Shown one piece after another: positions 19,283-40,719 of a stretch of DNA of 64,000 nucleotides. Positions within the stretch are counted from its first letter, which is position 1, and each line of letters opens with the position of its first letter. A model generated the notes under the pieces. The model was not told the origin of the DNA and searched no databases. It saw only the letters and a list, made by a program, of their open reading frames with translations. Source of the stretch: Bacteroides fragilis NCTC 9343 (GTDB lineage: Bacteria > Bacteroidota > Bacteroidia > Bacteroidales > Bacteroidaceae). The stretch is taken from NCBI RefSeq assembly GCF_000025985.1, contig NC_003228.3:3844001-3908000 (forward strand), written 5' to 3'. Made by a program: the position numbers and the translations under genes.

Positions 19283-19355
19283 GGTGCCATAGCTCAGTTG
19301 GTAGAGCAAAGGACTGAAAATCCTTGTGTCCCCGGTTCGATTCCTGGTGGCACCA
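19283..19355 (+). tRNA. tRNA-Phe (GAA)
   Basis: 73-nt cloverleaf with acceptor GGTGCCA/TGGCACC and anticodon GAA at 19316-19318. The CCA end is not encoded. Its 3' end is the integration target of the mobile element and is intact on this side, so the tRNA should be functional. Confidence 0.95.
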
Positions 19356-19358
19356 CTT
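19344..19358. repeat. attL core
   Basis: CTGGTGGCACCACTT, the T-arm/acceptor end of tRNA-Phe plus three bases. It is identical to the copy at 39972-39986. Confidence 0.9.
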
Positions 19359-19585: not shown

Positions 19586-19606
19586 TATCATTAAAAATTG
19601 AGCTGT

Positions 19607-20823
19607 ATGGAAAGAAAAAGATTCAGTGTTTTGTTCTTCATCAAGAGAAGCAAACTGTTAAAAAACGGGGAAGCTCCCGTGCGTGTGCGTGTTACTTATG
19701 ACCGCTTGTATGTGGAACTTCAACTAAAACGAAGCGTAAAAGTCCCACTTTGGTCGCAGGACAAAGAGAAATCAATAGGCAAAGACCGCAATTCCATAGA
19801 ACTAAACCATTACATTGATGCCTTACGTGTGAAATTCTATCAAATCTATCAAGATTTAGAACTGGAGGGAAAGATTATTTCTGCCCGTGCCATAGTAAAC
19901 CGCTATCAGGGAAAGGACGAAACTTTCAAGACATTATATAATGTATTCAAGGAGCATAACGACAACTGCCGGAAGCTAATCGGAACGGATTATGCCGACA
20001 TTACCGTAAGACGTTACGATAATTGCCTTAAATATCTTATGGAACTGGTGAAACGAGATTATAAGGTAGATGATATTCTACTACGTGAAGTAAACGGGGA
20101 ATTGGTGCGTAACTTTGATTTATACCTGAAAACGGAAAAGCATTGCGCACAAAATACTGTTATCCGTTATATGAAGTGTTTCAAGAAAGTGATAAACCTT
20201 GCCATTGCAAATGAATGGATAACAAAAAATCCATTTGCCGGAATCAAGTTTCACGAGATAGAAGTAAACAAACAGTTCCTTAGCCAAGCCGAAATAAATA
20301 AGATATGGCAGAAAGAGTTCAAAATAGAACGGCTGGAACTGGTACGGGATGTATTTATCTTCTGTGTGTACACGGACTGGCGTTTATAGACGTATATAAT
20401 TTACGTCCCGAACATATTTCAGAGGATAGCAACGGCAACTTGTGGATAGTAAAAGCTCGTGAAAAGACAAACAATCTTTGTAATATTCCACTTCTGAGTA
20501 TTCCGAAACAGATACTTGACAAATACAAGGACAATCCGTATTGCCTTGACAAAGGCGTTATGTTGCCAGTTCCCTGTAATCAAAAGATGAACAGTTATTT
20601 GAAAGAAATTGCCGACCTGTGCGGAATTAGAAAAAATCTAACCACGCACACCGCCCGACACAGCTTCGCAAGCGTCATTGCACTGGCTAACAATGTATCA
20701 CTTCCAAATGTGTCTAAAATGTTGGGACATTCTTCTACGAGAATGACACAGCATTACGCAAAGGTATTAGACCTAAGTATTTTGAAAGATATGCAAAATG
20801 TTGAAAATCTATTACTACTGTAA
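19607..20823 (+). pseudogene. int: Tyrosine recombinase (integrase), frameshifted
   Basis: Bacteroides-type phage/transposon integrase that would recombine the element with the tRNA-Phe end. The N-terminal arm/SAM-like part is in one frame (19607-20389, start ATG; the frame opens earlier at a TTG, 19598). The catalytic domain continues in another frame (from about 20374 to 20823). It has TGLAFIDVYNL where box I is expected, THTARHSF (HxxR) and LGHSSTRMTQHYAKV (His and the nucleophile Tyr). One lost G in ACGG(G)ACTGG at 20374-20375 explains the break; restoring it gives a normal protein of about 405 aa. Ala instead of Arg in box I is seen in some Bacteroides integrases. It could be a true pseudogene, a sequencing error or a rare slippage site. 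Confidence 0.8.
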
Positions 20824-20873: not shown

Positions 20874-22481
20874 TTACAAAATAAACGAACCCAATCTCAC
20901 AAGTAAAAAAATCAATAGTCCGAATATTACTATTATTGATTTAAAAGCAAATATCATTCCAGCAAACATATTTCCAATAGGAGACAGAACTGTTACGATA
21001 ACACATAAAGTCAACAAAGAACAAATCCATAAAGCTGTATATTTTTTCTTTACCAAATCAATATATCCCATTTGTTCTTTTAGTTCTTCTCCATTTCTTA
21101 ATATTATATCAATCTCTTTAGGGATCAGTAAATCTGAATATCGTTTTTTTAAAACAACATATCGATTGCTTATGTTTTTCTTCTCTACTTCAATATCACC
21201 TCGCATCCAAAGTAAATATAAAAATGAAATAAAAAAGACGGCATAACACAATATGCAAACTTCCTTTGTAAATAAAAAATAAGACTTAGAATTACCACCT
21301 AATACTTCTAAAACGATAGTACTAAAAAAGAACGTAATACAGGCAAGAAGATTGTGTTTAAACCCTTCTAAAAAATCTTTTTTAACAGCAGAAGACAAAG
21401 AGATTATAGCATCAAGTTCTTGATAAATCTGATTTCTAATAGCAACATATTTATCTAGATTTTCTTTTAAATAGGTCTTAAATGAAGACTGAATAGAAAT
21501 AAAAACATTATCTTCAATAGCAATATTATCATTTGCAATAAAAAGGCTTAATACATTTCTTGCAATACCGATCTTATCTGTTTTATTACCTTCTCCAATA
21601 TAAATCCATCTAAATATTTTAAAATACTCGTTTTCGGTATTTTTTAGTAATGAAAATGAATTATCAATATTCAACTCTCCATTAATATTCTTATAACCAC
21701 AAAGTTTGTAAACCAGTTTTCCATCCTTTGCATTCAATGATACTATATCTAAAATAGAGCACAATGAAAAAACAGCCGATAGAACATCAAATGTTTCTTG
21801 AAATATATTTTCCACATTACTTCTTTGAGTTATATGAAAATATAGAGGGGTCAATTTGTATACATCAAGATTTCCCCAATACACATTTTCTCTAATATCC
21901 TCTAAACAATTTACTATATGAGGCTTTTCTTCCCTGTTGTGGGAGAAATAGAACCCCTCTGTTTTAAAAGAACATATATCATCCTCCAAAAGATAAAAGA
22001 CTATCCCCCTCTTCAACTCTTCTTTTGATAAAACAAATAATCGGTTTTCCCATGTCAAGTCATTCCAATAATTACATAAAGCTATAAAATCATAAATATT
22101 CAATACCCTTTCTCTAATTTCTTTTCTAATTTTTACTAGAATAGAGAAAGAGTTTACAACTTCTATATCATCAGGATCATTTAAATCTAAACTTGCAAGT
22201 TTATCACTAATATGACTTACAAAGTTTTCTACATCAGTTATACTATGCAAAGAATTAATGGTTATTTCAGAATTGCCACAATACAAAAAATCAAACTGAC
22301 AATCATCCAGTATTTGCGCATAAAATAAGTTTATATCATCAGCTATCACACAAAATGGACGAGGTAATCGAAAGCATACCTCAACTTCATTAAATGATTC
22401 TTTCAATAAGAGATCTTGTACACCAATCCCAAATGTTGTCGAAATAAGATTAATCAGTTTCATTGCGTTTAAAATAATCAT
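20874..22481 (-). CDS. Uncharacterised membrane protein, 535 aa (partner of the 343-aa gene)
   Basis: I do not recognise the family. The first 370 residues look soluble. The C-terminal third has four likely membrane helices in two pairs (about 373-392, 405-425, 483-505, 512-535) separated by a charged, helical stretch of about 55 residues. This soluble sensor plus membrane tail is common in abortive-infection effectors, but no motif proves it. It overlaps the upstream 343-aa gene by 32 bp (start at 22481, or ATG at 22463), so the two are translated together. It is AT-rich and sits at the left cargo end of the element next to the integrase, facing it. Confidence 0.75.
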   Translation of the reverse strand: MIILNAMKLINLISTTFGIGVQDLLLKESFNEVEVCFRLPRPFCVIADDINLFYAQILDDCQFDFLYCGNSEITINSLHSITDVENFVSHISDKLASLDLNDPDDIEVVNSFSILVKIRKEIRERVLNIYDFIALCNYWNDLTWENRLFVLSKEELKRGIVFYLLEDDICSFKTEGFYFSHNREEKPHIVNCLEDIRENVYWGNLDVYKLTPLYFHITQRSNVENIFQETFDVLSAVFSLCSILDIVSLNAKDGKLVYKLCGYKNINGELNIDNSFSLLKNTENEYFKIFRWIYIGEGNKTDKIGIARNVLSLFIANDNIAIEDNVFISIQSSFKTYLKENLDKYVAIRNQIYQELDAIISLSSAVKKDFLEGFKHNLLACITFFFSTIVLEVLGGNSKSYFLFTKEVCILCYAVFFISFLYLLWMRGDIEVEKKNISNRYVVLKKRYSDLLIPKEIDIILRNGEELKEQMGYIDLVKKKYTALWICSLLTLCVIVTVLSPIGNMFAGMIFAFKSIIVIFGLLIFLLVRLGSFIL

Positions 22482-23481
22482 ATCCAGAATCTGTTTTTAT
22501 CTGAATCCATTTTCCATCTTCATTCTTTAATGGAATAATAAGACTTTTCTCTTCTTGAAAACTCATATCATCTATTTGCAATTTCAACTTTGGACTTAAT
22601 GGAATATTTCTTTTAACTCTACGATTTATACTTGCAGGTATAATAGAAAAAGATGTATCGAAATTTTTATTTTCAGACATTTTGTTTACCTTATCCTTAC
22701 ACCTGTCAAGAGAGAGCCCTTCAAGAATTGGAGTATAATGCTCCCAAACATGTTGCAGATATTCAGATAAATTAAACTCCTCATGACTTCTAAAATAATA
22801 AATTGTATTGTCCCGTAGTACTCTATAATCATCTGGACTTTTCACTTTCACCGAAAAGATAATCTTATCGATCAAATGCGTCAATACTTTCTCAGTATTC
22901 TTTGCATCAGAATTACAAAGCTGTACATCCAAATATCCTTCCCACCAATATCTAGCCGAGCGTCCTGAAGGATCATAGATAAAAGCATTGATTAACTGAT
23001 TATCAACTATCTCACAAAAGAATGATTTATACGTTTTCTTATTCAATGGAATGCCTCTTCTAGTCAACAGCTCTCTCTCATCGAGAAATTTATCATGGTC
23101 AGTTTTAGTTATTATGAAATAAGTCTTACCATCGTCCTCTACCAACAAATGAAATAAACTACCTTTAGGTATTTGTGTAATAGAGCCATATAGTTCTTGA
23201 GCATCTTTTTCTTTACGAAGCAATCTTTCGGCACTAATGGTAACAGATGAATTTTGTATTTCTACAATATCATTCTCAATTCCTTCAACAATAGCACTCA
23301 AGAGTCTATTATCAGGAGGAATCAAACAAGCTCTCTTATTCTTACCTGAGAATATCTCATTTAGAATTGATTGCACTATTGGCTCAATATCACTATAATG
23401 TTCTGTTAGATCTACAGCATCGATTGTATTCAAACTTTGTTCAATATGGTGCAGAAAAGCCTTTCTAATGTTCATAAGCAT
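22450..23481 (-). CDS. Uncharacterised soluble protein, 343 aa
   Basis: No clear family. The N-terminal half has alternating helices. The middle contains a hydrophobic block with KGSLFHLLVEDDGKTYFIIT, then a Lys/Arg-rich segment and DPSGRSARYWWEGYLDVQ, which distantly recalls nucleoid-associated NdpA/YejK-like proteins; this is only an impression. The C-terminus is charged, with no membrane segment. It is the first gene of a two-gene operon with the 535-aa membrane protein (32-bp overlap). A -7 box TACATTTG lies at 23503-23510 on the minus strand. The pairing of a soluble and a membrane protein in a mobile element's cargo zone makes a defence role plausible but unproven. Confidence 0.7.
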   Translation of the reverse strand: MLMNIRKAFLHHIEQSLNTIDAVDLTEHYSDIEPIVQSILNEIFSGKNKRACLIPPDNRLLSAIVEGIENDIVEIQNSSVTISAERLLRKEKDAQELYGSITQIPKGSLFHLLVEDDGKTYFIITKTDHDKFLDERELLTRRGIPLNKKTYKSFFCEIVDNQLINAFIYDPSGRSARYWWEGYLDVQLCNSDAKNTEKVLTHLIDKIIFSVKVKSPDDYRVLRDNTIYYFRSHEEFNLSEYLQHVWEHYTPILEGLSLDRCKDKVNKMSENKNFDTSFSIIPASINRRVKRNIPLSPKLKLQIDDMSFQEEKSLIIPLKNEDGKWIQIKTDSGYDYFKRNETD

Positions 23482-24498: not shown

Positions 24499-24804
24499 AT
24501 GAACAATCCTTTTGAAGAAATTTTCAAGCAGCTGGAAAACATCGAAAAGATGATTTCCCCCATAGTCAGTTCTTCATCCAAAGAACCGGACAGCAAGCAA
24601 TCCGTTTTAGTCAAAATATCCGTAGCCAGTCGGATAACCGGATATTCAGTTAATTACCTCTACCACTTAGCCAGCAGCGGAGCAATACCATGTGTCAAAC
24701 GTGGACGCTCCTTACGTTTCGATGTGGACGAGTTGCAGCGGTGGATGCAGCAACAATATGTACCAGCTTCCAGCAAACTATCCGATGAAAGAGAAAAGGG
24801 ATAA
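24499..24804 (+). CDS. Helix-turn-helix protein of the helicase operon
   Basis: A 101-aa protein: a helical N-terminus (KQLENIEKMISPIVS) and an excisionase-type HTH at residues about 38-85 (VKISVASRITGYSVNYLYHL, then GAIPCVKRGRSLRFDVDELQRWM). It is probably a DNA-binding partner of the replication/excision functions. The downstream VapE-like gene starts 20 bp before its stop, so the two are coupled. Confidence 0.85.
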   Translation: MNNPFEEIFKQLENIEKMISPIVSSSSKEPDSKQSVLVKISVASRITGYSVNYLYHLASSGAIPCVKRGRSLRFDVDELQRWMQQQYVPASSKLSDEREKG

Positions 24805-26017
24805 CGAAGCGGAACACACCGAGGGTAGGTTATCCAAGAACGAGCGCATCGAAAGGCAGCTTAATTCCTTGTACGACTTCCGGTTTAATATTGTGAAAAG
24901 CAGGACAGAATACCGGGCTGCAAATACTTCCGGTTTGTATCAGCCAGTCACAAAGTTTGCTTTGAACTCTTTCAGGCGCAAACTGGATGTTACCGCAGGT
25001 ATTACCACCTCTGCCGAAAACATCCGTATGATATTGGAAAGCGATTTCGCAAATAAGGTGCATCCCATACGGGAATACCTTACTGCCCTACCCTTGTTGA
25101 ATCCTGCCGGACATGGATATATCAAAAAACTGTTGAACACGGTGCAAGTAGCCAATCCCGGCGAGTGGGAGGAGTATTTTACGAAATGGCTTGTCGGTGT
25201 GGTAGCTAATGCCATGAATGATACAGGCTGTCAAAACCATACTTGTTTAGTCCTTACTGGCGACAATCAGGGACAGTTCAAAACATGGTGGCTGGATAAC
25301 CTTTGCCCGTCATCGCTAAAAAATTATCTATTTACCGGGAAGATAGACCCACAAAGCAAAGATATTCTGACACTGATAGCCGAATATCTGTTTATCAACA
25401 TCGACGACCAGCTAAAGGAACTCAACAAGCAGAATGAAAACGCATTAAAGAACCTGATAACCACCCCGGCAGTTAAATACCGCAGACCGTATGATATTTA
25501 CATAGAGGAATATCCGCATTTAGCCAGCTTCATGGCTTCGGTGAACGGTAACGAGTTCTTGACAGACCCGACAGGGAACAGACGATTTCTGCCTTTTGAA
25601 GTCCTGCACATTGATAAACCGACAGCAGAAAGTATCAACATGGATAATGTCTACTCCGAAATCATGTACTTGTATCGGCAAGGTGTACGCTATTGGTTTA
25701 ATGATGCGGAGATTGAAGAACTGCACCTGACAAATGCGGAATTTGAGGTGCAAACGGTTGAGTTTGAAATGCTGATGCAGTATTTTGAGAAGCCCACAGA
25801 GGAAGAAGAAAGCCTTTTCTTTATGACAACAGCGCAAATTCTCACTTGTTTACGGGATGTCTGCCCTATGCAGTTATCTGAAAAACGGTTGGGGGAAGCA
25901 TTGCGGAAAGCCGGATTTAAACGGGTACAAAAGCGTATCAGCAACTGCAACTATTCAGTATATGGGTACAGAATAAAGCCTGTTTCCATACCCTACACCG
26001 ATAACGATTACGGTTAA
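24785..26017 (+). CDS. VapE/VirE-like helicase-type ATPase
   Basis: About 410 aa, with an open frame extending upstream to 24692. The ATG at 24785 (MKEKRDNEAEHTEG) overlaps the HTH gene by 20 bp and is the likely start. The central domain resembles the D5-like/virulence-associated E superfamily-3 helicases of Bacteroides elements: WEEYFTKWLVGVVANAM, a P-loop-like LTGDNQGQFKTWWLDNL, then FINIDDQLKELNKQN (Walker B-like) and DPTGNRRFLPFEV. The P-loop is unusual (GxxxGxxKT rather than GxxxxGKT). It probably helps replication of the excised element, together with the primase downstream. Confidence 0.8.
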   Translation: MKEKRDNEAEHTEGRLSKNERIERQLNSLYDFRFNIVKSRTEYRAANTSGLYQPVTKFALNSFRRKLDVTAGITTSAENIRMILESDFANKVHPIREYLTALPLLNPAGHGYIKKLLNTVQVANPGEWEEYFTKWLVGVVANAMNDTGCQNHTCLVLTGDNQGQFKTWWLDNLCPSSLKNYLFTGKIDPQSKDILTLIAEYLFINIDDQLKELNKQNENALKNLITTPAVKYRRPYDIYIEEYPHLASFMASVNGNEFLTDPTGNRRFLPFEVLHIDKPTAESINMDNVYSEIMYLYRQGVRYWFNDAEIEELHLTNAEFEVQTVEFEMLMQYFEKPTEEEESLFFMTTAQILTCLRDVCPMQLSEKRLGEALRKAGFKRVQKRISNCNYSVYGYRIKPVSIPYTDNDYG

Positions 26018-26352: not shown

Positions 26353-27387
26353 ATGACTTATCAGGAAGCTAATCATATCAGTATCAAAGACTATCTGAAA
26401 TCATTGGGCATTCTGCCCGCAGTGGATAAATATTATTACGGCATGTACCATAGTCCGTTCCGTCAGGATGATACGCCCAGTTTCAAGGTGGATTACGGTG
26501 TAAACCTGTGGTGTGACTTCGGGACAGGCGAGGGTGGCTCGCTCATCGACCTTGTAATGAAGCAGCACGGGTACAACGCCTACGATGCTATCTGTCGGCT
26601 GGAACAGTATTCATCCGGAAATTCTTTTTCTTTTCAAGGAAAAGAGGTTTCAGAAAAGAATCAGCATGAAAGGAAACAACCGACCAGCCCGATAGAAATC
26701 CGTAAAATCCAGCCGTTGCAGAATCCAGCACTCATAGATTATTTGAGAAGCAGGAACATTCCACCTCAAATGGCAGTACACTATGTGCAGGAAATGTATT
26801 ACCGTATCGGCGACAAACCTTATTTTGCACTCGCTTTCAAGAACGATGCCGGAGGTTACGAGCTTCGCAATCCACGTTTCAAGGGCAGTACATCACCCAA
26901 AGACATCACACACATACGGCAGTCAGGCAAAAAGAACGATAGCTGTTTTGTTTTCGAGGGAGTTATGGACTATCTTTCTTTTATCGCCATCCGGCAGAAA
27001 ACAAATCCTACCTATCCTTGTCTTGACTGGCAGGATTATGTTATCCTGAACTCAACCACAAATGTAGATAAAGCCTTATACCCGTTAGCCGAATACGAAC
27101 ATATCCACTGCCTTTTGGATAATGACGATGCAGGGCGTAAAGCTACCCAAGCCATACAAAAAGAATATTGTTGGCATGTACGTGATTCATCACATCTGTA
27201 CAATGAATACAAGGACTTGAACGATTACCTGTGTGGGAAGAAGTTCAACCAAGCAGAGAATAGGATGCAACAGTCAACCCAACAAACGCAGTCGGAGAAA
27301 CAAAAACAGTCTGCCAAGCAACAACAGCAGGAAGATAAAAATAGACAAACTCCCGATGAAAAAAGAAAAAGGGGCAGGCGGTTGTAA
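26353..27387 (+). CDS. Toprim-domain DNA primase of the element
   Basis: A 344-aa CHC2/Toprim-type primase. The N-terminal part (residues about 1-75) resembles a CHC2 domain (SPFRQDDTPSFKVDYG, WCDFGTGEGGSLIDLVM) but lacks the usual zinc-ligand set. The Toprim domain has the catalytic Glu in CFVFEGVMDYLSF and the DxD-type motif in HCLLDNDDAGRKAT. The C-terminal 50 residues are a Gln/Lys-rich tail. It likely primes replication of the element after excision or transfer. It lies before the oriT-like region. Confidence 0.85.
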   Translation: MTYQEANHISIKDYLKSLGILPAVDKYYYGMYHSPFRQDDTPSFKVDYGVNLWCDFGTGEGGSLIDLVMKQHGYNAYDAICRLEQYSSGNSFSFQGKEVSEKNQHERKQPTSPIEIRKIQPLQNPALIDYLRSRNIPPQMAVHYVQEMYYRIGDKPYFALAFKNDAGGYELRNPRFKGSTSPKDITHIRQSGKKNDSCFVFEGVMDYLSFIAIRQKTNPTYPCLDWQDYVILNSTTNVDKALYPLAEYEHIHCLLDNDDAGRKATQAIQKEYCWHVRDSSHLYNEYKDLNDYLCGKKFNQAENRMQQSTQQTQSEKQKQSAKQQQQEDKNRQTPDEKRKRGRRL

Positions 27388-27399
27388 TTAGTAGAACAG

Positions 27400-27544
27400 G
27401 CAAAGCATACCAACGGCAAGCGGTATGATTTAGGGGAGCAAGGTTATGTTTCGGTAGACCGAAACACCTTGCTTTGCTCATCGCAAAGGGAAATTTCTCC
27501 CGTTGGTCGCAATTTCTAAGATACCACCTAAAAAGCAAAAACGT
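27400..27544. other. oriT: Putative oriT region
   Basis: Non-coding DNA directly before the mobilization genes, with two hairpins. One is CATACC/GGTATG (27406-27411, 27422-27427). The second is a 16-bp stem with a 3-nt bulge (27437-27443 with 27467-27473, inner 27447-27455 with 27458-27466). Inverted repeats beside a nick site are typical of transfer origins. The nick itself cannot be placed from sequence. Confidence 0.6.
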
Positions 27545-27928
27545 ATGACAGAGATAAGAAACAAATCAGGAGGTCGACCGGCAAAGAACCGGATAGACAA
27601 ACAAAAACGGGTAGTCAGTACGAAGCTGACAGAGTTACAGTATTACGCTATCAAGAAGCGAGCCGGAGAATCCGGTCTGCCTATTAGCGAATACGTCCGG
27701 CAAGCGATTATTTCGACAGAGGTAACACCCCGACTGAACAAGCAGGACGCAGACAGTATCCGCAAGTTAGCCGGAGAAGCCAACAACCTCAACCAGCTTG
27801 CGCACCGTGCCAATGCAGGAGGTTTTGCGCTCGTGGCAGTGGAGCTTGTGAAACTGAAAAACAGGATTATTGAAATCATAAACCAGTTATCGGATGATTG
27901 GAAAAATAAAAAAGGGAAGCGGATTTAA
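27545..27928 (+). CDS. MobC-like relaxosome accessory protein
   Basis: 127 aa from ATG 27545; a TTG frame extension to 27503 is unlikely. The basic N-terminus (GGRPAKNRIDKQKRVVSTKLT) leads into a ribbon-helix-helix-like start, then GLPISEYVRQAIIS and the MobC-type helix region LAGEANNLNQLAHRANAGGF. It should bind oriT and help the relaxase nick it. The relaxase start lies 35 bp inside its end. Confidence 0.85.
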   Translation: MTEIRNKSGGRPAKNRIDKQKRVVSTKLTELQYYAIKKRAGESGLPISEYVRQAIISTEVTPRLNKQDADSIRKLAGEANNLNQLAHRANAGGFALVAVELVKLKNRIIEIINQLSDDWKNKKGKRI

Positions 27929-28808
27929 AGGTTGTGTGAACTATGTACTCGGCAAGGAACAGGCAGCTTTGCTTCATGCGGAGGGAGTGTTAGCCGAAAG
28001 CAAGCAGGACATTATCCGTAGTTTCTGTATGCAAACAGAAATGAATCCCGGTTTGAAGAAGCCAGTCGGACATATTGCGCTAAGTTATTCGGTAGTGGAT
28101 GCCCCAAAACTAACAGACGAGAAAATGATACAGTTGGCACAAGAGTACATGCGTGAAATGAAAATCACCGATACGCAGTATATCATCGTGCGGCATCAAG
28201 ACCGGGAGCATCCGCATGTACATATCGTATTCAACCGGATAGATAATAACGGTAAAACCATTTCAGACAGTAACGATATGTTCCGGAACGAGCAAGTTTG
28301 CAAGAAGCTGAAAGAAAAACACGGATTGTATTTTGCCAAAGGGACAGAGCAGGTGAAACAGCACTGTCTAAAAGAGCCGGACAAAACGAAATACGAGATT
28401 TACACGGCTGTAAAGAATGAAATCGGGAAATCAAGGAACTGGCAGCAGTTACAGGAGCAGTTAATGGAAAAAGGTATCAGCATTCAGTTCAAACACAAAG
28501 GGCAGACGGATGAAATACAGGGCATTTTTTCCAAAGGTGAATACATGTTCAAAGGCTCGGAGATTGACCGCAGTTTCAGTTTTTCCAAATTGGATAAATA
28601 TTTCGGGGATGCAAGGTTGACAACAGCCGGAAGCAACAAGCAAACGATTACCCCACAAACACAGGAACCAGCAATAAACAAAAGTGATAATTCGCTACTG
28701 GCAGGTTTAGGTGGTTTGTTTTCCGTTTCGTCCTCTCCTGTTGATGAAACGCCTGACAATCCCGATTTGAGAAAGAAGAAGAAAAAGAAACGACAATTTA
28801 AGTTATAA
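27894..28808 (+). CDS. Relaxase / mobilization nuclease
   Basis: A 304-aa MobP-type relaxase (Relaxase/mobilization nuclease family). It nicks oriT and pilots the DNA strand during transfer by a helper's conjugation machinery. N-terminal GSGFKGCVNYVLG holds a Tyr candidate. The metal-binding histidines are in GHIALSYS (His60) and EHPHVHIVFNRID (residues 105-117). The C-terminal third is basic and ends in a Lys-rich tail. Coupled to the MobC-like gene by overlap. Confidence 0.92.
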   Translation: MIGKIKKGSGFKGCVNYVLGKEQAALLHAEGVLAESKQDIIRSFCMQTEMNPGLKKPVGHIALSYSVVDAPKLTDEKMIQLAQEYMREMKITDTQYIIVRHQDREHPHVHIVFNRIDNNGKTISDSNDMFRNEQVCKKLKEKHGLYFAKGTEQVKQHCLKEPDKTKYEIYTAVKNEIGKSRNWQQLQEQLMEKGISIQFKHKGQTDEIQGIFSKGEYMFKGSEIDRSFSFSKLDKYFGDARLTTAGSNKQTITPQTQEPAINKSDNSLLAGLGGLFSVSSSPVDETPDNPDLRKKKKKKRQFKL

Positions 28809-30044: not shown

Positions 30045-30660
30045 TTATCTATATCCTTTTTTATCATGTTCGTTTCGGATAAGGTCAGATAGTCCATTAA
30101 GAAATTCGGTTATTTTGCCCAGCTTGCGCTTTATTACATCCTCATGCTTTTGGTGATAGTCTTTCAGTTGGATGTTAAACACCCATTCAAAGGCTTTAGA
30201 GAAGTCAGACAAAAAAGCTGGTTTGCCATTTTTATAGACGATATGTTTGGAAAGGAATAAACTGCTGATAATTTCCATTATATCAATCAGGTTTGTTTTG
30301 TCTGCCAAATAAAGAGGAGAAAAAGGTTGTTTATTAAAGTGTGGTTTGAACTGTTCAGGGTATTTAATACGCCATTCTACAAGGCGTATTTCATTGTTCA
30401 GTAATCCTATCGCTTCATCAATGAGATACAAATAAGGCATTTTTTTCTTGCTCAAACCACACACGGTACGATTTAAGTCTATGTAATCCGAAAGAAAAAC
30501 AGCGTAGTAAAACGCTATTATCCTGTTCGTTAGTACTAAAATCAGCTAAATGGGTAGCTAATTCGTTGATAGCTTCTGATAGTTTATCCACAGAAGCTTT
30601 ACGCTGTGGATATTCCGACAATAGACGGAAAAATCTCTGTTGTAATAAGTTGCTCATCAT
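30045..30660 (-). pseudogene. RteC-like regulator, frameshifted at an A7 run
   Basis: Two overlapping frames (30418-30660, 80 aa; 30045-30464, 139 aa) together give an RteC-like protein of about 204 aa. The second part has the C-terminal pattern LADKTNLIDIMEIISSLF, then FSKAFEWVFNIQLKDY and RKLGKITEFLNGL. RteC activates excision genes in CTnDOT-type elements. The frames meet at seven A on the coding strand (30440-30446). With six A the sequence reads through as EQEKMPYLYLIDEAIG. It may be a pseudogene, a phase-variable tract or a slippage site. Confidence 0.7.
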
Positions 30661-33773: not shown

Positions 33774-34106
33774 ATTTACCGTTTGAGAGTACAAAATTAC
33801 CCAAAAGATTTCAAACAGATACTCCATTTAACAAACAAAATCACTATTTTTATAGTGAGGTTTTGAAACAATGGAAATGCTAAACAGATTGAAGAAATTC
33901 TTTCGTTTCTATATCGTTACAGCTTATTCTATACACTTCGTCTAAGCACCTGTTATTCAACTGATAAAATTCTTATTTTCGTTAAGTGAAAACGTAAATT
34001 GAATTAAGGGATTCACAAATAAGCAATTAAAAGCCACAACAACAAATAAAGCTGTATTAATAAAGAGATTACCAAACAAATAGCTATTTTTGCATTATAT
34101 TTATAG

Positions 34107-34460
34107 ATGTCTATGATAAATACAGAAACCATACAATCACTCATTGATACCGGAGAAGGCTATAATGTAGAATTTAAAGTCCGTGTATCCTCAAAAGTTC
34201 GTGAACTAACAGAGGAAATTTGCGCTTTCGCCAATGCAGACGGAGGATATTTACTTATTGGGGTAGATGATAATGGACTGATTACTGGCACAAATTTGGA
34301 AAATGACAAACACTCTGCCATCCAAGGCTCTATCAGTGAAATATCTCCGACTCTTCATCGTGAGACGTATGCGGTAAGTATTGAGAATAAGACAAGTTGG
34401 ATAATTGATGTCCTATCAGGGAAAGACAAGTTTATATATTTCCCGATTTTATCCTTGTGA
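34107..34460 (+). pseudogene. Degenerate AlbA_2-domain gene copy
   Basis: 117 aa, closely similar (by eye about 75-80%) to the first 115 residues of the full AlbA_2 gene at 35431. It shares SLIDTGEGYNVEFKVRVSSK and FANADGGYLLIGVDDNG. Compared with the full copy, a 2-base loss after GKDK shifts the frame, and the sequence stops 11 codons later. Homology to the next stretch persists for a few tens of bases and then fades. A -7-like TATTTTTG lies at 34085-34092. Probably a remnant of a paralogous gene; a short stand-alone AlbA-like protein is possible. Confidence 0.7.
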
Positions 34461-34541
34461 GGGGAAGTATTTGTTCCCCAAAATATGAATAACAGAGCAT
34501 TGTCACTCAGCAATAGTCAATATTAATCAAAAACACATATT

Positions 34542-35270
34542 ATGTTCCGCTATATTATTGAAACATTACCAGATTCAAGTTCTTTCAAAAAGTATTATAA
34601 TAAGACAAGAAGAGCCAAGAATATACGTAATAAGAAAAAGTACATTCCAGAATACTTAAAAGATAATAATTTTGAGGTTGAATTAAATTACAAACTATGG
34701 GTTACGAAAGGAGCTAGATTTAAGGCAAGTGAACGATGCGAAGAATTAGATGCTAGATATAATCGTATTGTAGGATGGGTATCCTCATATTTAATTATTT
34801 TTAGTGTTTTAAATCTATGCAAAATACCATTTTTTACTCTTCCTGATAATTGCAGTACATTTATATCCATCTCACTTTCCATATTAATTTTAGTTTTTAG
34901 CCAATTTGCTTATGCAAAAAATTACTCTGTTCATGCTAAAAATTATCACGAATGCGCTTTGGAAATAGCAAAATTATATAATGAACTACGGTCATTAAAA
35001 GTAAAATCAGAACATAGTATGCAGGAAGTTCTTAAAATAAAGGGTGAATATGAAAAGATACTCGATAGATACAATAATCATTTGCCTATTGATTTAATAA
35101 TGTTCAAGTTGGAGAAAAGAGAATATTTTAATATAAGCTTATATTCTAGTTTTTTTAATCATATAAGATACTTTATATTAGTTCGTTCTGCTTACTATTT
35201 TTGTGTATTCATTCTTCCCATTTTGTATTGCTCCATTTGTATAATCAATCTAGGAACATTCCTAAAATAA
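34542..35270 (+). CDS. SLATT-like two-helix membrane protein
   Basis: 242 aa with paired hydrophobic helices at about 81-102 (VGWVSSYLIIFSVLNLCKIP) and 107-125 (ISISLSILILVFSQFAYAK), and another hydrophobic stretch near the C-terminus (YYFCVFILPILYCSICIINL). The N-terminal NYKLWVTKGARFKASERCEEL and the helix after the membrane pair (YSVHAKNYHECALEIAKLYNELRSL) match SLATT proteins, predicted pore-forming effectors of anti-phage systems; one SLATT family is known to associate with reverse transcriptases. It lies about 1.5 kb before the reverse transcriptase-nitrilase gene on the same strand. Assignment is by pattern. Confidence 0.75.
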   Translation: MFRYIIETLPDSSSFKKYYNKTRRAKNIRNKKKYIPEYLKDNNFEVELNYKLWVTKGARFKASERCEELDARYNRIVGWVSSYLIIFSVLNLCKIPFFTLPDNCSTFISISLSILILVFSQFAYAKNYSVHAKNYHECALEIAKLYNELRSLKVKSEHSMQEVLKIKGEYEKILDRYNNHLPIDLIMFKLEKREYFNISLYSSFFNHIRYFILVRSAYYFCVFILPILYCSICIINLGTFLK

Positions 35271-35430
35271 ACGGAAATTTTCATGATGAGATTTTAAAGA
35301 GCATCCTGTTTTCAGATTTTCTCAGGTCCATCATATCTAAGATAAAAGAGACTTTCATGACAAATAGGCAGGAGTTTATGAACTACTTACCCAACAAACA
35401 ATTAACTTTGTACCACTATTTCAGAAAATT

Positions 35431-36810
35431 ATGCTTTACACAGAAAACCTACAGTCACTCATTGATAGCGGAAAAGGCTATAATGTAGAATTTAAAGTTC
35501 GTGTTCCTTCAAAAGTTCGTGAACTGACAGAGGAAATATGTGCTTTCGCCAATGCAGACGGAGGATATTTGCTTATTGGAGTAGATGATAACGGGCAAGT
35601 AGTAGATACTAATTTAGAAAACGATAAACGTTCTGCCATTCAAGGTTCTATCAGCGAAATATCTCCTGCACTCCACTGTGAATTGTATTCCGTAAATGTT
35701 GGGAATAAAACTGTTTGGGTAATTGATGTTCCGTCCGGCAAGGATAAACCTTATATATTTTCCGGTTCTATCTATGTGCGTGAAGGGGCAAACTCACAGA
35801 AACTTCGCACAGCCGAAGAAATGCGTAGCTTCTTTCAGGAATGTAACAAAATCTTTTTCGACCATATACCCTGTCATTGGTTCAATATCTACACGGATGC
35901 AGACGAACAAATGATTAAAGGCTTTCGAACAGAAGCCAAACTAAGTCCGTCCACACCCGACAAACAAATATTTGAGAACTTGGAACTGTTTATTGAAAAT
36001 GGAACGGCAAAGAACGGAGCAGCGATGTTCTTCGGAAAACAACCTGAAAGAAAATTTCCACACGCTGTTACAAGATGTGTTCTTTTCAAGGGAACGAATA
36101 AAGTCTATATTATAGATGATAAAACTTTCGGAGGTTCATTGTACCAACAGTATTTACAGGCAATGTCTTGGCTGGAAAGCAAACTGCAAGTAGCTTATAA
36201 AATAGAGGGAGCAGGACCAAGAGAGGAAATTTGGGAAATACCTCTGACCGTATTTAAAGAAGCCATTATAAACGCCCTGTCGCACCGTGATTACTACGAA
36301 CAAGGCGCAAGCATTATGATAGAAATGTTTGATGACCGGGTAGAAATTTCCAATCCCGGAGGACTTCTGCCTGTTGTGGCTAAAGATTTCGGGCATAAAA
36401 GCATGACACGTAATCCGCTAATATTCGGATTATTTACCCGTATGCACTTGGTAGAAAGAGTTGCATCCGGTATTCCTCGTATGCAGGAAGCCATGAGGGA
36501 AGCAAATCTGCCCGAACCGGAATTTCATACGGAAGGGATGTTTACGGTAGTGTTCAAACGGAAAAACACTAACTCTGCCAACCGTGACATAGTAAATGGC
36601 ATAATAAATGGCATAGTAAATGAGAATGAGCAAACGATTTTAAACCTGCTTAAAGCTAAACCGGGATTAAATGCTTCGGAAGTAGCTGAAAGTCTCTCTA
36701 AAAGTTGGAGAACAACTATGCGCTACCTTAAATCTCTAAATGATAAAGGTTTGGTTGAATTCAGAGGTGCCCCAAAAACCGGAGGATATTATTTAACAAG
36801 AAACATATAA
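35431..36810 (+). CDS. AlbA_2-domain / RecG-like ATP-binding protein
   Basis: 459 aa. Residues about 1-125 form an AlbA_2 (Schlafen-like) nucleic-acid-binding domain (GYNVEFKVRVPSKVRELTEE, ANADGGYLLIGVDDNG). A helical middle is followed by a GHKL-like ATPase domain (KEAIINALSHRDYY, EISNPGGLLP, RNPLIFGLFTRMHLVER). The C-terminus is a winged HTH (GLNASEVAESLSKSWRTTMR), preceded by a repeat-like NGIINGIVNEN. Probably a transcription regulator. It ends 4 bp before the reverse transcriptase gene, so the two are co-transcribed. A -7-like box TAACTTTG lies at 35403-35410. Confidence 0.85.
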   Translation: MLYTENLQSLIDSGKGYNVEFKVRVPSKVRELTEEICAFANADGGYLLIGVDDNGQVVDTNLENDKRSAIQGSISEISPALHCELYSVNVGNKTVWVIDVPSGKDKPYIFSGSIYVREGANSQKLRTAEEMRSFFQECNKIFFDHIPCHWFNIYTDADEQMIKGFRTEAKLSPSTPDKQIFENLELFIENGTAKNGAAMFFGKQPERKFPHAVTRCVLFKGTNKVYIIDDKTFGGSLYQQYLQAMSWLESKLQVAYKIEGAGPREEIWEIPLTVFKEAIINALSHRDYYEQGASIMIEMFDDRVEISNPGGLLPVVAKDFGHKSMTRNPLIFGLFTRMHLVERVASGIPRMQEAMREANLPEPEFHTEGMFTVVFKRKNTNSANRDIVNGIINGIVNENEQTILNLLKAKPGLNASEVAESLSKSWRTTMRYLKSLNDKGLVEFRGAPKTGGYYLTRNI

Positions 36811-36814
36811 AAGT

Positions 36815-39800
36815 ATGATAGATAATAAACTATTTACATTTCAACAAATATACGAAGCTTATCGTAAATTGAAAAGCTATATTTATTATGATAATACATC
36901 TTTATTTATTAGAAAAGAATTCTCCAGTTTCGAATCTTCAATATTAGCAGGTGAGAATTTTGAAGATAATTTTAAAAAGAAGATGAAAAGTTTGTATGAC
37001 ATCTTGAATTCTGATAATTATCAAACTGATTTAGATAAACTTGTAAGCAAAATAGGTTATAAACTTGTACCTAAATCTATAAAGAAAAAAGAAAGCACAA
37101 TAGTCACCAATATACCTCATACAGGGAAAATAGAGGTAGAAAGTTATAATATATTAATAGATGCACCTATTGAAATACATATAATATCAGTATTGTGGTT
37201 AATAGTAGCAGGAAAAGAACTTTGCAAATATGTAAATGAAAACAATTATGCTTATAAGTTATTGCTATTAGATGAATCTTATCTACCAATGACAGATATT
37301 AAGATTGAGACCAATAAGGAGAACTATGTTGTTACTGGCTTGCAACTCTATGAACCTTATTTTATTGGCTATCAAAATTGGAGAGATAATGCATTAAATT
37401 CAGCCACAAAACTCTTAGATGATAACAAAGATGCCACCATTCTAAGCCTTGATATACAAAGATATTTCTACTCAGTCAGAATAGACTTGGATTCAATTAA
37501 AAACAGATGTTCACATTCCAATAAACAAATTGAGAAATGCTTTCATCTGCTTCAAATTATAAACAAAACTTATACATCAAAAATAAACAAGTTATTAGAC
37601 ATCCCACTAACAAATGATGAATTGAATGCTGGATATACAATTTTACCTATAGGCCTTCTATCCTCTGGACTATTAGGAAATTTATATTTAGAAGATTTTG
37701 ACAAAACGATAAAAGAAGAATTAAATCCCGCTTATTATGGAAGATATGTAGATGATATTCTTTTTGTATTTAGTGATCGAAAGGTCAAATTAGAGGTGAA
37801 CAATCCTATTCATGATTTTATTGATCGATATTTTATTAAAAAAAATATATTGGAAACAATACTAGATGAAAACAATATTACCTATCTCTTACCAGTTGGT
37901 TCTCATAAGTTAAAAATTCAATCTGAAAAAGTAATATTAGAGCATTTTAATCATAAAGAATCTAGAGCAGCAATTAATATATTTAAAAAAAATCTAGATA
38001 AAAATCGGAGTGAATTTCGTTTTCTTCCATATGAGGAAAACATTGATAATGAATTTGATAACGAAGCATTTTCAATGCATTATTCAGACTCTATTAATAA
38101 ACTTAGAAGTATTAAAGAGTTCAAAGAAGATAAATATGGAGCCTCCAAATTTTTAGCTCATAAAATATTTCTTTCAAAAATATCTCCTAATGAAAAAGAT
38201 TACAATAGAAAATATTTTTTTCAATCTTCGAAACAGATACTGACTTTCTTTAAAGGTTCTACTGCTCTATCTCTATATACTTTATGGGAAAAAGTAGCGA
38301 CATATTTTGTTATAAACAACGAATCCAAATGTCTAATTATTTTCTACAATCAAGTACTAAACACAATAAATAATATTAAGACAGTCAATGGTGAAAACAA
38401 AATAAAAGAGGATTTAAAAGAATTTTTATTTATCTCTATTGCAATGCCTATTTCTATGCGAATGAATATCAAAATAGATAATAACAATGACGATGTGGTA
38501 ATACATAAGCTAGCAGATGATATTAGAAAAACAAATATGTTTAGACAGAATTTATTAGGAATAAGTTGTATTAATTATACTGATTATATAGATCATATTA
38601 CAAATGACTTATTTCATATAAATATCAAAAATATAAAGGACTTAAAAATTCAAATCAATATAGCAAAATTTATATCCCCACGTTTCGTGCACTACCACGA
38701 ATTCAACATACTTAACATCTATCAAGTATTTTCCAGTATAAATAAAGAGTCCGACATTCGATTATTTGACAAAATACAGGATATCGCTTTTAATCAGTAC
38801 AAAGAATTCAATTACGATTGGAGATTTTTATATAGTAATACAGATCCAATATATCCTAAAGATTTTTTCACTTTAACACAATCAGAAAACAGTAATTGCA
38901 AAAATATAAATATATTAGAAGACAACGAAGTTGAATGCAACAAAAAAATAGGCCTTGCAAATATTGAAGTTTCAGAAAATGATATTTTATCTGCTATAAA
39001 AATGATTCCAAATATCTCAAAAGAGAGAAGAAAAAGGATTTTTGAAATAATGAATTATTCACACAAGAAACACGTAGACTTAGTAGTATTACCTGAAGTT
39101 TCTGTACCTTTTGAATGGATTGACTTTTTTGCAGAACAAAGCAAGAATAACAATATTGCATTTATTATTGGCTTAGAACATGTTGTTAGCTCATATAACT
39201 TTGCATATAATTTTACAGCAACAATTCTTCCAATAAAACAAAAAGAATTTACAACATGTTTAGTTAGAATTCGTCTTAAAAACTATTATTCACACTCTGA
39301 AAAAGAACTCCTAAAGGGATATAGACTTATAAACCCCTCAGAAATTAAACCAGAATTAAAACTATACGATTTATTTCACTGGAGAAAATCGTACTTTTCT
39401 GTATATAATTGCTTTGAACTCGCCAATATCTCAGATCGTGCATTATTTAAATCTAAATTAGATTTCATTGTTGCAACAGAGTACAATAAAGATATTAACT
39501 ATTTCTCAGATATTGCAGGTTCATGGGTTAGAGATTTACATTGCTTCTTCGTACAAGCAAACTCCTCACAATATGGAGATTCAAGAATCGTTCAACCAGC
39601 AAAAAGTGACTTTAAAAATATGATATCTGTAAAAGGAGGTAAGCACCCCGTTGTCTTGATAGATGAATTACAGATCGATAAACTAAGAGATTTCCAAAAC
39701 AAAGAATACAATTTGCAAAAAGAATTAATAGATAAAGAAAAAACACATTTAAAGCCAACACCTCCTGACTTTAATAAAGACAATGTTTTAAAAAGAATAA

Positions 39801-39817
39801 AAGATGAGCCTATATAG
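36815..39817 (+). CDS. Reverse transcriptase-nitrilase fusion (DRT type 1-like defence protein)
   Basis: 1000 aa. The reverse transcriptase part has motif A with catalytic Asp213 (LSLDIQRYF), PIGLLSSGLLGNLYLEDFD, and YVDD at residues 311-314 (GRYVDDILFVF). A long helical linker follows. Residues about 730-980 form a nitrilase-like domain with the Glu-Lys-Cys triad at Glu761 (VVLPEVSVP), Lys822 (RIRLKNYYSHSE) and Cys866 (VYNCFELAN). This architecture is that of UG1-type reverse transcriptases of defence system DRT type 1, which protect against phages. There is no maturase or endonuclease domain, so it is not a group II intron protein. It is very AT-rich, the last gene before attR, and 4 bp after the AlbA_2 gene. 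Confidence 0.9.
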   Translation: MIDNKLFTFQQIYEAYRKLKSYIYYDNTSLFIRKEFSSFESSILAGENFEDNFKKKMKSLYDILNSDNYQTDLDKLVSKIGYKLVPKSIKKKESTIVTNIPHTGKIEVESYNILIDAPIEIHIISVLWLIVAGKELCKYVNENNYAYKLLLLDESYLPMTDIKIETNKENYVVTGLQLYEPYFIGYQNWRDNALNSATKLLDDNKDATILSLDIQRYFYSVRIDLDSIKNRCSHSNKQIEKCFHLLQIINKTYTSKINKLLDIPLTNDELNAGYTILPIGLLSSGLLGNLYLEDFDKTIKEELNPAYYGRYVDDILFVFSDRKVKLEVNNPIHDFIDRYFIKKNILETILDENNITYLLPVGSHKLKIQSEKVILEHFNHKESRAAINIFKKNLDKNRSEFRFLPYEENIDNEFDNEAFSMHYSDSINKLRSIKEFKEDKYGASKFLAHKIFLSKISPNEKDYNRKYFFQSSKQILTFFKGSTALSLYTLWEKVATYFVINNESKCLIIFYNQVLNTINNIKTVNGENKIKEDLKEFLFISIAMPISMRMNIKIDNNNDDVVIHKLADDIRKTNMFRQNLLGISCINYTDYIDHITNDLFHINIKNIKDLKIQINIAKFISPRFVHYHEFNILNIYQVFSSINKESDIRLFDKIQDIAFNQYKEFNYDWRFLYSNTDPIYPKDFFTLTQSENSNCKNINILEDNEVECNKKIGLANIEVSENDILSAIKMIPNISKERRKRIFEIMNYSHKKHVDLVVLPEVSVPFEWIDFFAEQSKNNNIAFIIGLEHVVSSYNFAYNFTATILPIKQKEFTTCLVRIRLKNYYSHSEKELLKGYRLINPSEIKPELKLYDLFHWRKSYFSVYNCFELANISDRALFKSKLDFIVATEYNKDINYFSDIAGSWVRDLHCFFVQANSSQYGDSRIVQPAKSDFKNMISVKGGKHPVVLIDELQIDKLRDFQNKEYNLQKELIDKEKTHLKPTPPDFNKDNVLKRIKDEPI

Positions 39818-39828
39818 AATAATTTTAC

Positions 39829-39836
39829 TATCTTTG
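39829..39836 (+). promoter_or_regulatory. Possible -7 box after the reverse transcriptase gene
   Basis: TATCTTTG 12 nt past the stop, facing attR, with no TTTG at -33. The 150 bp up to attR hold no ORF but contain ACACAAACTTGTGT (inverted repeat), so an RNA gene or integrase-binding arm is possible. Confidence 0.35.
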
Positions 39837-39971
39837 CATTCAGAAATCGAACCTAAGACACAAACTTGTGTTGAACGGTGCAAAGCTGTGAAAACCTTAT
39901 TCAAGGGACTAACATCGTGATAAAGATATAACTTATTGAGAAATAGTGCTATACAAACTTATTTTCGGTTG

Positions 39972-39986
39972 CTGGTGGCACCACTT
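39972..39986. repeat. attR core
   Basis: CTGGTGGCACCACTT, identical to the end of tRNA-Phe (19344-19358). It marks the right junction with the chromosome. Confidence 0.9.
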
Positions 39987-39992
39987 CAAAAT

Positions 39993-40028
39993 AAAAAACG
40001 TTGTGAATCATCTTTCGCAACGTTTTTT
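39993..40028. terminator. Terminator at the right flank of the element
   Basis: An 11-bp inverted repeat (39993-40003 with 40018-40028) with A and T runs on both sides. Probably the original terminator of tRNA-Phe before the insertion; it can also end the convergent minus-strand operon. Confidence 0.85.
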
Positions 40029-40080
40029 ATTTATCTCCACAAACTATATTAGTAACCTTTTTATGGTTCAAACTAGTACT

Positions 40081-40719
40081 TCAACAAAGTAGAAAATCCC
40101 GTAATAACCGAACTGAACTAAAGACATAACCGGAATTATATTTTTCTAACTGCTCACAGTCTGTCGATGCAGCCCATGCCGCTGACAAACACTGTATCTT
40201 TACGAAATAGCATGCCTCGATATCAGAAACCGCATCTCCTACATATATCATTTCATTCGACTTAAAGCCATAATATAATAATATGTCCTTCATTGCTTCT
40301 GATTTTCTGTTCTTTTCAGAAGAGCCGGTTTCTATTCGGTCAAAACACCCATCCATACCAAATTGTTTCAATGTAATATCACAACTTCTTATACCTTTCC
40401 CCGTAATAAGAACTACTATTACATTTCTTTCATGTAATTGCCCGATCAATGTTTTCATCCCTTCAAATGGCTTGGGACATAAAATGGCATGCATTTCTTC
40501 ATAAATTACATAGAAATCATTTAATGCCTTCTCCCGACTATCACCGTAAACCACTTGATTGATCATACCTTCTTCATTTAATCCGAAGGTCCGCGCTATC
40601 TCGTCATCTGATAGTTCATGATCTACATAAGGAGTAGTCGCCTCTCTGAATGCTGCTAAACATAGCGGAATAGTATCTCCTATCGTACCATCCAGATCAA
40701 AAGCTACCAGCCGGATCAT
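40081..40719 (-). CDS. HAD-superfamily phosphatase
   Basis: 212 aa. HAD motif I is FDLDGTIGDT with the nucleophilic Asp. Motif II is in VVLITGKG, and motif IV in MIYVGDAVSDIEAC. The helical cap lies between residues 15 and 85. It resembles phosphoglycolate phosphatase-like enzymes, but the substrate is not evident. Its start overlaps the end of the acetyltransferase gene by 23 bp, so the two are coupled. Confidence 0.85.
   Translation of the reverse strand: MIRLVAFDLDGTIGDTIPLCLAAFREATTPYVDHELSDDEIARTFGLNEEGMINQVVYGDSREKALNDFYVIYEEMHAILCPKPFEGMKTLIGQLHERNVIVVLITGKGIRSCDITLKQFGMDGCFDRIETGSSEKNRKSEAMKDILLYYGFKSNEMIYVGDAVSDIEACYFVKIQCLSAAWAASTDCEQLEKYNSGYVFSSVRLLRDFLLC

Follow-up and report, generated by a model that had tools for sequence, protein, structure and literature searches.

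Two described groups of nitrilase-bearing reverse transcriptases (RTs), DRT type 1 and the UG5-nitrilases, are closest to the locus of Bacteroides fragilis NCTC 9343 that we describe here. DRT type 1 (UG1, Drt1a; PDB 9yfd) is a single protein of 1229 aa with RT, helical repeat and nitrilase domains. According to the excerpted text of PMC13275509, it synthesizes DNA on its own Ser402 without a template, its tetramers stack into dormant filaments, the active sites of both RT and nitrilase are needed, and the protection that it confers fits abortive infection. The same excerpt reports that purified DRT5S and DRT5L also produce protein-attached DNA and are class 3, protein-primed and template-free, with DNA synthesis by DRT5 given there in vitro only. 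For UG5, a group of class 3 UG/Abi RTs, a nitrilase, either fused or neighbouring, is recorded for 50% of the members in complete genomes (PMC8934634, excerpt). The UG5-nitrilases are probably the group to which DRT5S and DRT5L belong, a correspondence that we read from the name only. A further system, DRT10, combines a UG17 RT with a SLATT protein and a non-coding RNA, and the excerpt of PMC12632851 describes SLATT as required. We analysed a stretch of 64,000 nucleotides (NC_003228.3, positions 3,844,001 to 3,908,000; hereafter the window, to which all coordinates refer) in which three genes encode a SLATT-like membrane protein, a protein with an AlbA_2 domain and an RT-nitrilase. A sequence-only reading had joined the three into one DRT type 1-like locus.

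A reverse transcriptase of the UG5 type with a fused nitrilase

The three open reading frames lie on the plus strand at 34542-35270 (242 aa), 35431-36810 (459 aa) and 36815-39817 (1000 aa), the last two 4 nt apart, as had been read before. For the 1000-aa protein the top PADLOC profile was RT_UG5-nitrilase (PDLC03780), which scored 771.5 bits over residues 5-991 and outperformed the profiles of other UG groups; the runners-up among 14 matches were Drt1a with 100.6 bits and UG36 with 59.8 bits. These scores rule out the identity with UG1/DRT type 1 that had been proposed. A Pfam scan of the protein gave no match up to E 0.1. The protein shares with DRT1 the combination of RT and nitrilase in one chain, with a weak but significant similarity (E 3.6e-10) and the same set of domains, whereas it differs in length and, by profile score, in RT group. 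To the UG5-nitrilase group it is related by the same fusion and a near full-length profile match, and no architectural difference was seen. Judged by its sequence, the protein is thus a known kind of enzyme, a class 3 RT-nitrilase of the UG5-nitrilase group.

The RT domain spans residues 100-480 and a helical region residues 480-680, approximately and with both limits set by eye, followed by the nitrilase (705-989) and a C-terminal tail. A confident predicted structure places a nitrilase fold at 705-989; the fold-match lists for this structure (library to April 2026) were without DRT1 itself, and no conclusion was drawn from them. Motif A (Asp213) and the YVDD motif (311-314) of the RT, as well as the intact triad Glu761, Lys822 and Cys866 of the C-terminally fused nitrilase, were found at the positions previously given and do not vary across 78 aligned sequences, which include the protein itself and were drawn from 120 listed of 800 homologues. 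Among the homologues listed, the closest beyond its own cluster is 54% identical. Ser399, located within R398-S399-E400-x-R402, is likewise invariant in the alignment, and S383 is conserved in at least 90% of the sequences; both residues are candidate priming serines. A weak pairwise alignment pairs Ser402 of DRT1 with N388, which lies between S383 (5 residues away) and S399 (11 residues away). Close to the C terminus K980, T982-P983-P984, V991 and R994 are conserved in at least 90% of the 78 sequences, and this segment (K980-R994) may be the counterpart of the C-terminal lid of DRT1.

Matches at E ≤ 1e-40 occurred in 4 of 393 genomes of the order, the own genome included, and a search of 201 genomes of the family yielded no further RT-nitrilase that scored similarly (the next match, interrupted by stops, reached 115 bits). 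Phage records gave no match and plasmids 10 records, all distant. A peptide-pattern search of genome contigs with the single protein returned no relative, while the alignment search did find relatives.

A mobilizable element at tRNA-Phe with a variable cargo slot at its right end

The locus makes up the cargo on the right-hand side of a 20.6-kb mobilizable element integrated at tRNA-Phe (19283..19356, plus strand), a location that the sequence-only reading had overlooked. The 3' end of the tRNA gene recurs at 39964-39986, 146 nt from the stop codon of the RT gene, and the two attachment cores are direct repeats on the plus strand (attL, CTGGTGGCACCACTT, 19344..19358; attR, CTGGTGGCACCACTT, 39972..39986). 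Between these repeats lie genes for a tyrosine integrase (19598..20823, plus strand) and, on the same strand, a MobA-type relaxase (27894-28808), the combination that characterizes an integrative mobilizable element. The element ends with a plus-strand segment of 180 nt (39819..39998) that immediately follows the stop codon of the RT and contains attR. In a sister genome, G014, the left flank is 98.3% identical over 1412 nt up to 19412 (94% over the last 313 nt in another search) and the right flank 98.4% identical from 39969 outward. Between these flanks G014 has different DNA with mobilization-like genes (recognised by eye) and weak similarity to the integrase.

We searched 399 genomes of the family with the right-end segment (39819-39998). 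Matches were found in 38 genomes, nine places at E ≤ 4.1e-39 and the others only 21-43 nt long. The nine strong places are in eight genomes, the own genome included, and the eight besides the window (seven genomes) are 81-94% similar to its right end. Eight right ends were readable inward over 5 kb or more; contig C24 of G009, with only 1 kb to its left, was dropped. In seven of these eight the gene bordering the variable region on the left is AlbA_2, and the six other copies are 82-95% identical to that of the window.

The DNA between this border gene and the right end differs from element to element. In the window it is the RT-nitrilase gene. G034 has a type VI retron, consisting of a 76-aa gene (outside the profile scan), a helix-turn-helix (HTH) gene (HTH_VI, 99.5 bits) and an RT gene (RT_VI, 270.7 bits), and G824 a 483-aa protein of the AbiO/Nhi type (538.7 and 537.8 bits, respectively). 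In G831 the slot holds a 249-aa protein with a Hypoth_ymh match and weak matches to Aga_HEPN (35.7 bits) and PD-Lambda-3_B (33.7 bits). Contig C7 of G009 carries a 117-aa gene with no match and a 212-aa gene with a single PADLOC match (E 0.0077), and G388 a 115-aa gene (outside the scan) and a 398-aa gene with no match. G844 is empty, since only 4 nt lie between the AlbA_2 stop codon and the onset of right-end similarity, and the right end of G114, where AlbA_2 is missing, adjoins DarT (197 bits) and DarG (384 bits). Thus, four of the seven occupied slots, including that of the window, gave strong PADLOC defence matches, one is weakly HEPN-like and two have no convincing family. One position with differing defence systems and one empty site constitutes a defence hotspot. 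It resembles the P2/P4-type hotspots of phages and their satellites, where one position of a mobile element holds varied anti-phage systems (PMC9122126, excerpt), and differs from them in that the carrier is a mobilizable element and a conserved regulator-like gene forms the left border.

G034, G824, G831 and G844 also have the relaxase and further backbone genes; in the short contig of G009 (C7) RteC is the only backbone gene. A tRNA-Phe lies near the element in G844 and G114 and was not found in the stretches of G034, G824 and G009:C7. Two of the cargo genes are candidate new defence genes, namely those for the 398-aa protein (L197:6492-7688, minus strand) and the 212-aa protein (L321:516-1154, minus strand), the latter with an N-terminal hydrophobic segment seen by eye. 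We found no description of the slot in the titles and abstract beginnings of CC-licensed PMC papers. What this locus adds to a known enzyme is its setting: near its right end, a mobilizable element keeps AlbA_2 as a border gene and exchanges the defence cargo behind it.

AlbA_2 as the border gene of the slot

The border gene (35431..36810, plus strand) encodes a protein of 459 aa with SLFN_AlbA_2 (E 4.1e-22) and HATPase_c_4 (E 1.5e-25) domains in Pfam and a winged HTH, which bears out the AlbA_2/ATPase identity assigned earlier. The Bacteroidota -7 promoter box has the form TAnnTTTG. Such a promoter-like box, TAACTTTG (35403-35410), precedes the gene within an inverted repeat ACAAA-N8-TTTGT (35394..35411, plus strand). 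TAnnTTTG occurs 22-29 nt ahead of the AlbA_2 start in all seven slot elements that have the gene, and the overlapping repeat in three of them. The ratio of nonsynonymous to synonymous substitution (dN/dS) between the window copy and eight relatives was 0.08-0.28, with a median of 0.11 and a maximum of 0.40 over 36 pairs; by this measure AlbA_2 is under purifying selection. In the window and in G009 a gap of 4 nt separates the stop codon of AlbA_2 from the cargo, and in G831 stop codon and cargo overlap. Spacing and promoter-like box fit a leader or regulator gene whose transcript would run into the cargo.

Among 301 genomes searched, relatives of AlbA_2 with 76-91% identity were found in eight others, and in the stretches read no RT-nitrilase adjoins any of them. 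Besides the slot elements, close copies (76-88%) are present in G121, G194, G235, G022 and G180 (the last with one internal stop), and G091 has a broken one. The only trace of such a right end in the stretches around these copies was a 49-nt att-like match in G121, where the contig stops 1.1 kb beyond AlbA_2; the copy of G022 adjoins a tRNA-Phe. As AlbA_2 borders varied cargo in the sister elements, we concluded that it belongs to the element and not to the RT system. Given its own promoter-like box and purifying selection, it is probably a leader or regulator of whichever cargo follows.

Neighbours of other RT-nitrilases and the SLATT gene

For comparison we examined 83 loci, namely the best 79 of 547 genome hits and 4 of 80 viral loci (the other 76 viral loci match the RT part only). 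They are 26-43% identical to the protein on the best segment, save for a short fragment with 55% (L080), and the distant ones may represent other class 3 groups; flanks of at least 3 kb on both sides were available at 55 of the 83. Type I restriction genes, searched for with queries recognised by eye in L203, were located on the same strand within 6 kb at 15 loci and on both sides at 7. Other neighbours were Cap15 (L049) and an RT-associated transmembrane protein (L045; PADLOC RTasTM, 386 bits). The RT-nitrilase is constant while its neighbours vary, as would be expected for a one-gene system. Directly downstream of the RT gene, four loci (L017, L021, L024 and L027) encode proteins of 219-234 aa with three to four hydrophobic segments; two of these proteins are weakly Csx27-like (26.5 bits). 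These gave no Pfam match above the cut-off; they had been considered as counterparts of SLATT, which was ruled out as they lack a SLATT match, and it is possible that they are membrane partners of UG5-nitrilases in other bacteria.

The SLATT gene of the window (34542..35270, plus strand) indeed encodes a SLATT_5 membrane protein (242 aa; PF18160, E 2e-42) and matches the PADLOC model RTasSLATT with 129 bits. However, a profile built from 120 listed of 137 SLATT_5 proteins detected SLATT_5 at none of the 83 other RT-nitrilase loci (members of other SLATT families would be missed), so that the gene is probably no partner of the RT-nitrilase. In 301 genomes of the family one other, G191, has a close relative (74%), among genes that look by eye like type I restriction genes and without an RT; G136 has a weak match with stops. 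Upstream of the SLATT gene we found a truncated second AlbA_2 (34107..34460, plus strand; DNA similarity to L199 at 34058-34459) that had escaped the sequence-only reading and is an allele unlike the intact copy. Protein similarity to AlbA_2 runs past its stop codon, to residue 129. The truncated copy is nearest to the alleles of G388 and G022 (87 and 85% DNA identity), the intact copy to those of G034 and G121 (92 and 91%). Duplication of AlbA_2 in place was ruled out by these differing nearest alleles, although tree support around the truncated copy was only 0.39-0.82. SLATT is probably a separate, older piece of cargo between two AlbA_2 alleles, and this position looks like stacking by recombination at AlbA_2 rather than an operon built as a unit.

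Proposed function and alternative explanations

We consider it fairly likely that this class 3 RT-nitrilase of the UG5 group works like DRT1, as cargo of the defence slot bordered by AlbA_2 and with SLATT as a separate gene. By analogy with DRT1, the RT would need no external template and would attach the DNA that it makes covalently to its own protein; such synthesis would assemble and poise the nitrilase, and infection would free the nitrilase so that the cell stops, as in abortive infection. AlbA_2 has its own promoter-like box, its transcription would probably continue into the cargo across the 4-nt gap, and AlbA_2 would most likely drive and, via its winged HTH, tune expression of whichever defence gene follows. 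The slot that the RT-nitrilase shares with retron VI, AbiO/Nhi or DarTG in sister elements is a positional argument for defence by UG5-nitrilases, and we infer a function in phage defence.

Several observations weigh against this explanation. Conservation of Ser402 of DRT1 does not extend to other class 3 DRTs according to PMC13275509 (excerpt), so the priming step is drawn here by analogy. All conclusions on the slot are based on eight readable examples; among these, G388 shares only RteC and a 40% identical primase with the element of the window, and G114 has cargo yet neither AlbA_2 nor mobilization genes nor any shared backbone gene. No tRNA-Phe was found in the stretches of G388 and G831, although the latter includes the integrase, so right ends may also lie at other target sites. 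Read-through is less clear where the cargo begins 44 nt (G388), 55 nt (G824) or 757 nt (G034) after AlbA_2. PADLOC contains models of RT-associated SLATT proteins, so some RTs do pair with such proteins. Finally, 6 of the 83 other RT-nitrilases have a same-strand AlbA_2-type gene no more than 2 kb away (L047, L054, L069, L076, L085 and L089), two of which (L054 and L076) lie in type I restriction operons. Such genes are 5 to 15 times denser near RT-nitrilases than farther out, depending on whether three far hits or one are counted (p = 0.02 and 0.003, respectively; 0.11 and 0.03 without the two restriction-operon hits). This could reflect a true link to the RT.

In two other explanations neighbouring genes are parts of the system. 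The three genes could form a co-evolved unit comparable to DRT10, with SLATT as membrane effector, AlbA_2 as sensor or regulator and the RT-nitrilase as the maker of a signal. Their close order on one strand, the narrow gap between AlbA_2 and RT, the RTasSLATT match, the requirement for SLATT in DRT10 and the density of AlbA_2-type genes would agree with this, and an RT near a SLATT protein is indeed the feature shared with DRT10. We regard it as unlikely, since SLATT_5 was not found beside other such RTs, its close relative has restriction-like neighbours and no RT, AlbA_2 has close relatives without an RT-nitrilase, some ahead of other cargo, and a promoter-like box lies between SLATT and RT. 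The RT is moreover UG5-like, with no UG17-named model among its 14 PADLOC matches (whether PADLOC names a UG17 model was not checked). The interval 33800-40100 contained no Rfam match up to E 1 (whether Rfam covers the DRT10 RNA was not checked). Only slightly less doubtful is a two-part unit in which AlbA_2 is a sensor or inhibitor specific for this RT-nitrilase and the same gene is re-used with other partners elsewhere. The 4-nt spacing, the selection on AlbA_2 and AlbA_2-type genes within 200 nt of the RT-nitrilases of L047, L085 and L089 speak for it. However, AlbA_2 copies 86-91% identical stand ahead of AbiO/Nhi, retron VI, a HEPN-like gene or nothing and are hardly RT-specific, and at 77 of the 83 loci no same-strand AlbA_2 was found within 2 kb, some contigs ending earlier. 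That the RT-nitrilase serves the element itself, by DNA synthesis, stability or addiction, seems very improbable: its place at the very end of the element, adjoining attR, would suit such a role, but it is missing from the seven other readable slots, established phage-defence families occupy the same position, and DRT1, a class 3 relative, protects against phages (PMC13275509, excerpt). The cargo explanation keeps from the sequence-only reading the fusion of a defence-type RT with an intact nitrilase, and drops SLATT and AlbA_2 as components of the system; for AlbA_2 a regulatory link may exist.

Other features of the element

The integrase gene is split into two overlapping frames, 19598-20389 (Arm-DNA-bind_5 and Phage_int_SAM_5) and 20305-20823 (Phage_integrase). 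Its reading frame is not intact in the window and is a single open frame in the relative L322, so that the element may be fixed or reliant on an integrase from elsewhere. Replication genes encode a VapE-like protein (24692-26017) and a Toprim primase (26353-27387), and MobC (27503-27928) precedes the relaxase, all on the plus strand; an RteC-like gene (PF09357, E 3.5e-7) is located on the minus strand at 30045..30464. Near the left end two A+T-rich genes (20874-23481, minus strand) encode proteins of 535 and 343 aa, neither with a Pfam or PADLOC match, the former with hydrophobic stretches near its C terminus (by eye); they are possibly further cargo.

Within the right end a promoter-like box, TATCTTTG (39829-39836), is directed outward and would face the integrase on a circular form; TAnnTTTG was present in six of the seven right ends compared and missing in G824. 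Just beyond attR, a terminator-like inverted repeat of 19 nt (39989-40032; 95%, 6-nt loop) is common to the window and G014. In G014 the same tRNA-Phe site (L145, G014:C5:512000-530000) is occupied by different DNA, in which genes resembling those for a relaxase and MobC were recognised by eye. A second integrase-bearing stretch of the own genome, L157, shares the part with RteC, aldo-keto reductase and AraC genes (81% DNA identity) and encodes a retron type VI-like RT (L157:5810-6658, on C1 at about 2467.8-2468.7 kb; RT_VI, 290.5 bits).

Significance of the slot

These results correct the type of the system, and the supposed three-part defence system loses two of its genes. We tentatively suggest that AlbA_2 acts as a plug-in control gene, in which one regulator and its promoter would place exchanged UG5 RT-nitrilase, AbiO/Nhi, retron VI or HEPN-like genes under a shared infection- or stress-responsive switch. 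The slot can be mined for new defence genes, beginning with the 398-aa, 212-aa and 117-aa cargo. Should AlbA_2 indeed control whatever follows it, such a pairing of a single regulator with exchangeable defence genes would be unusual.

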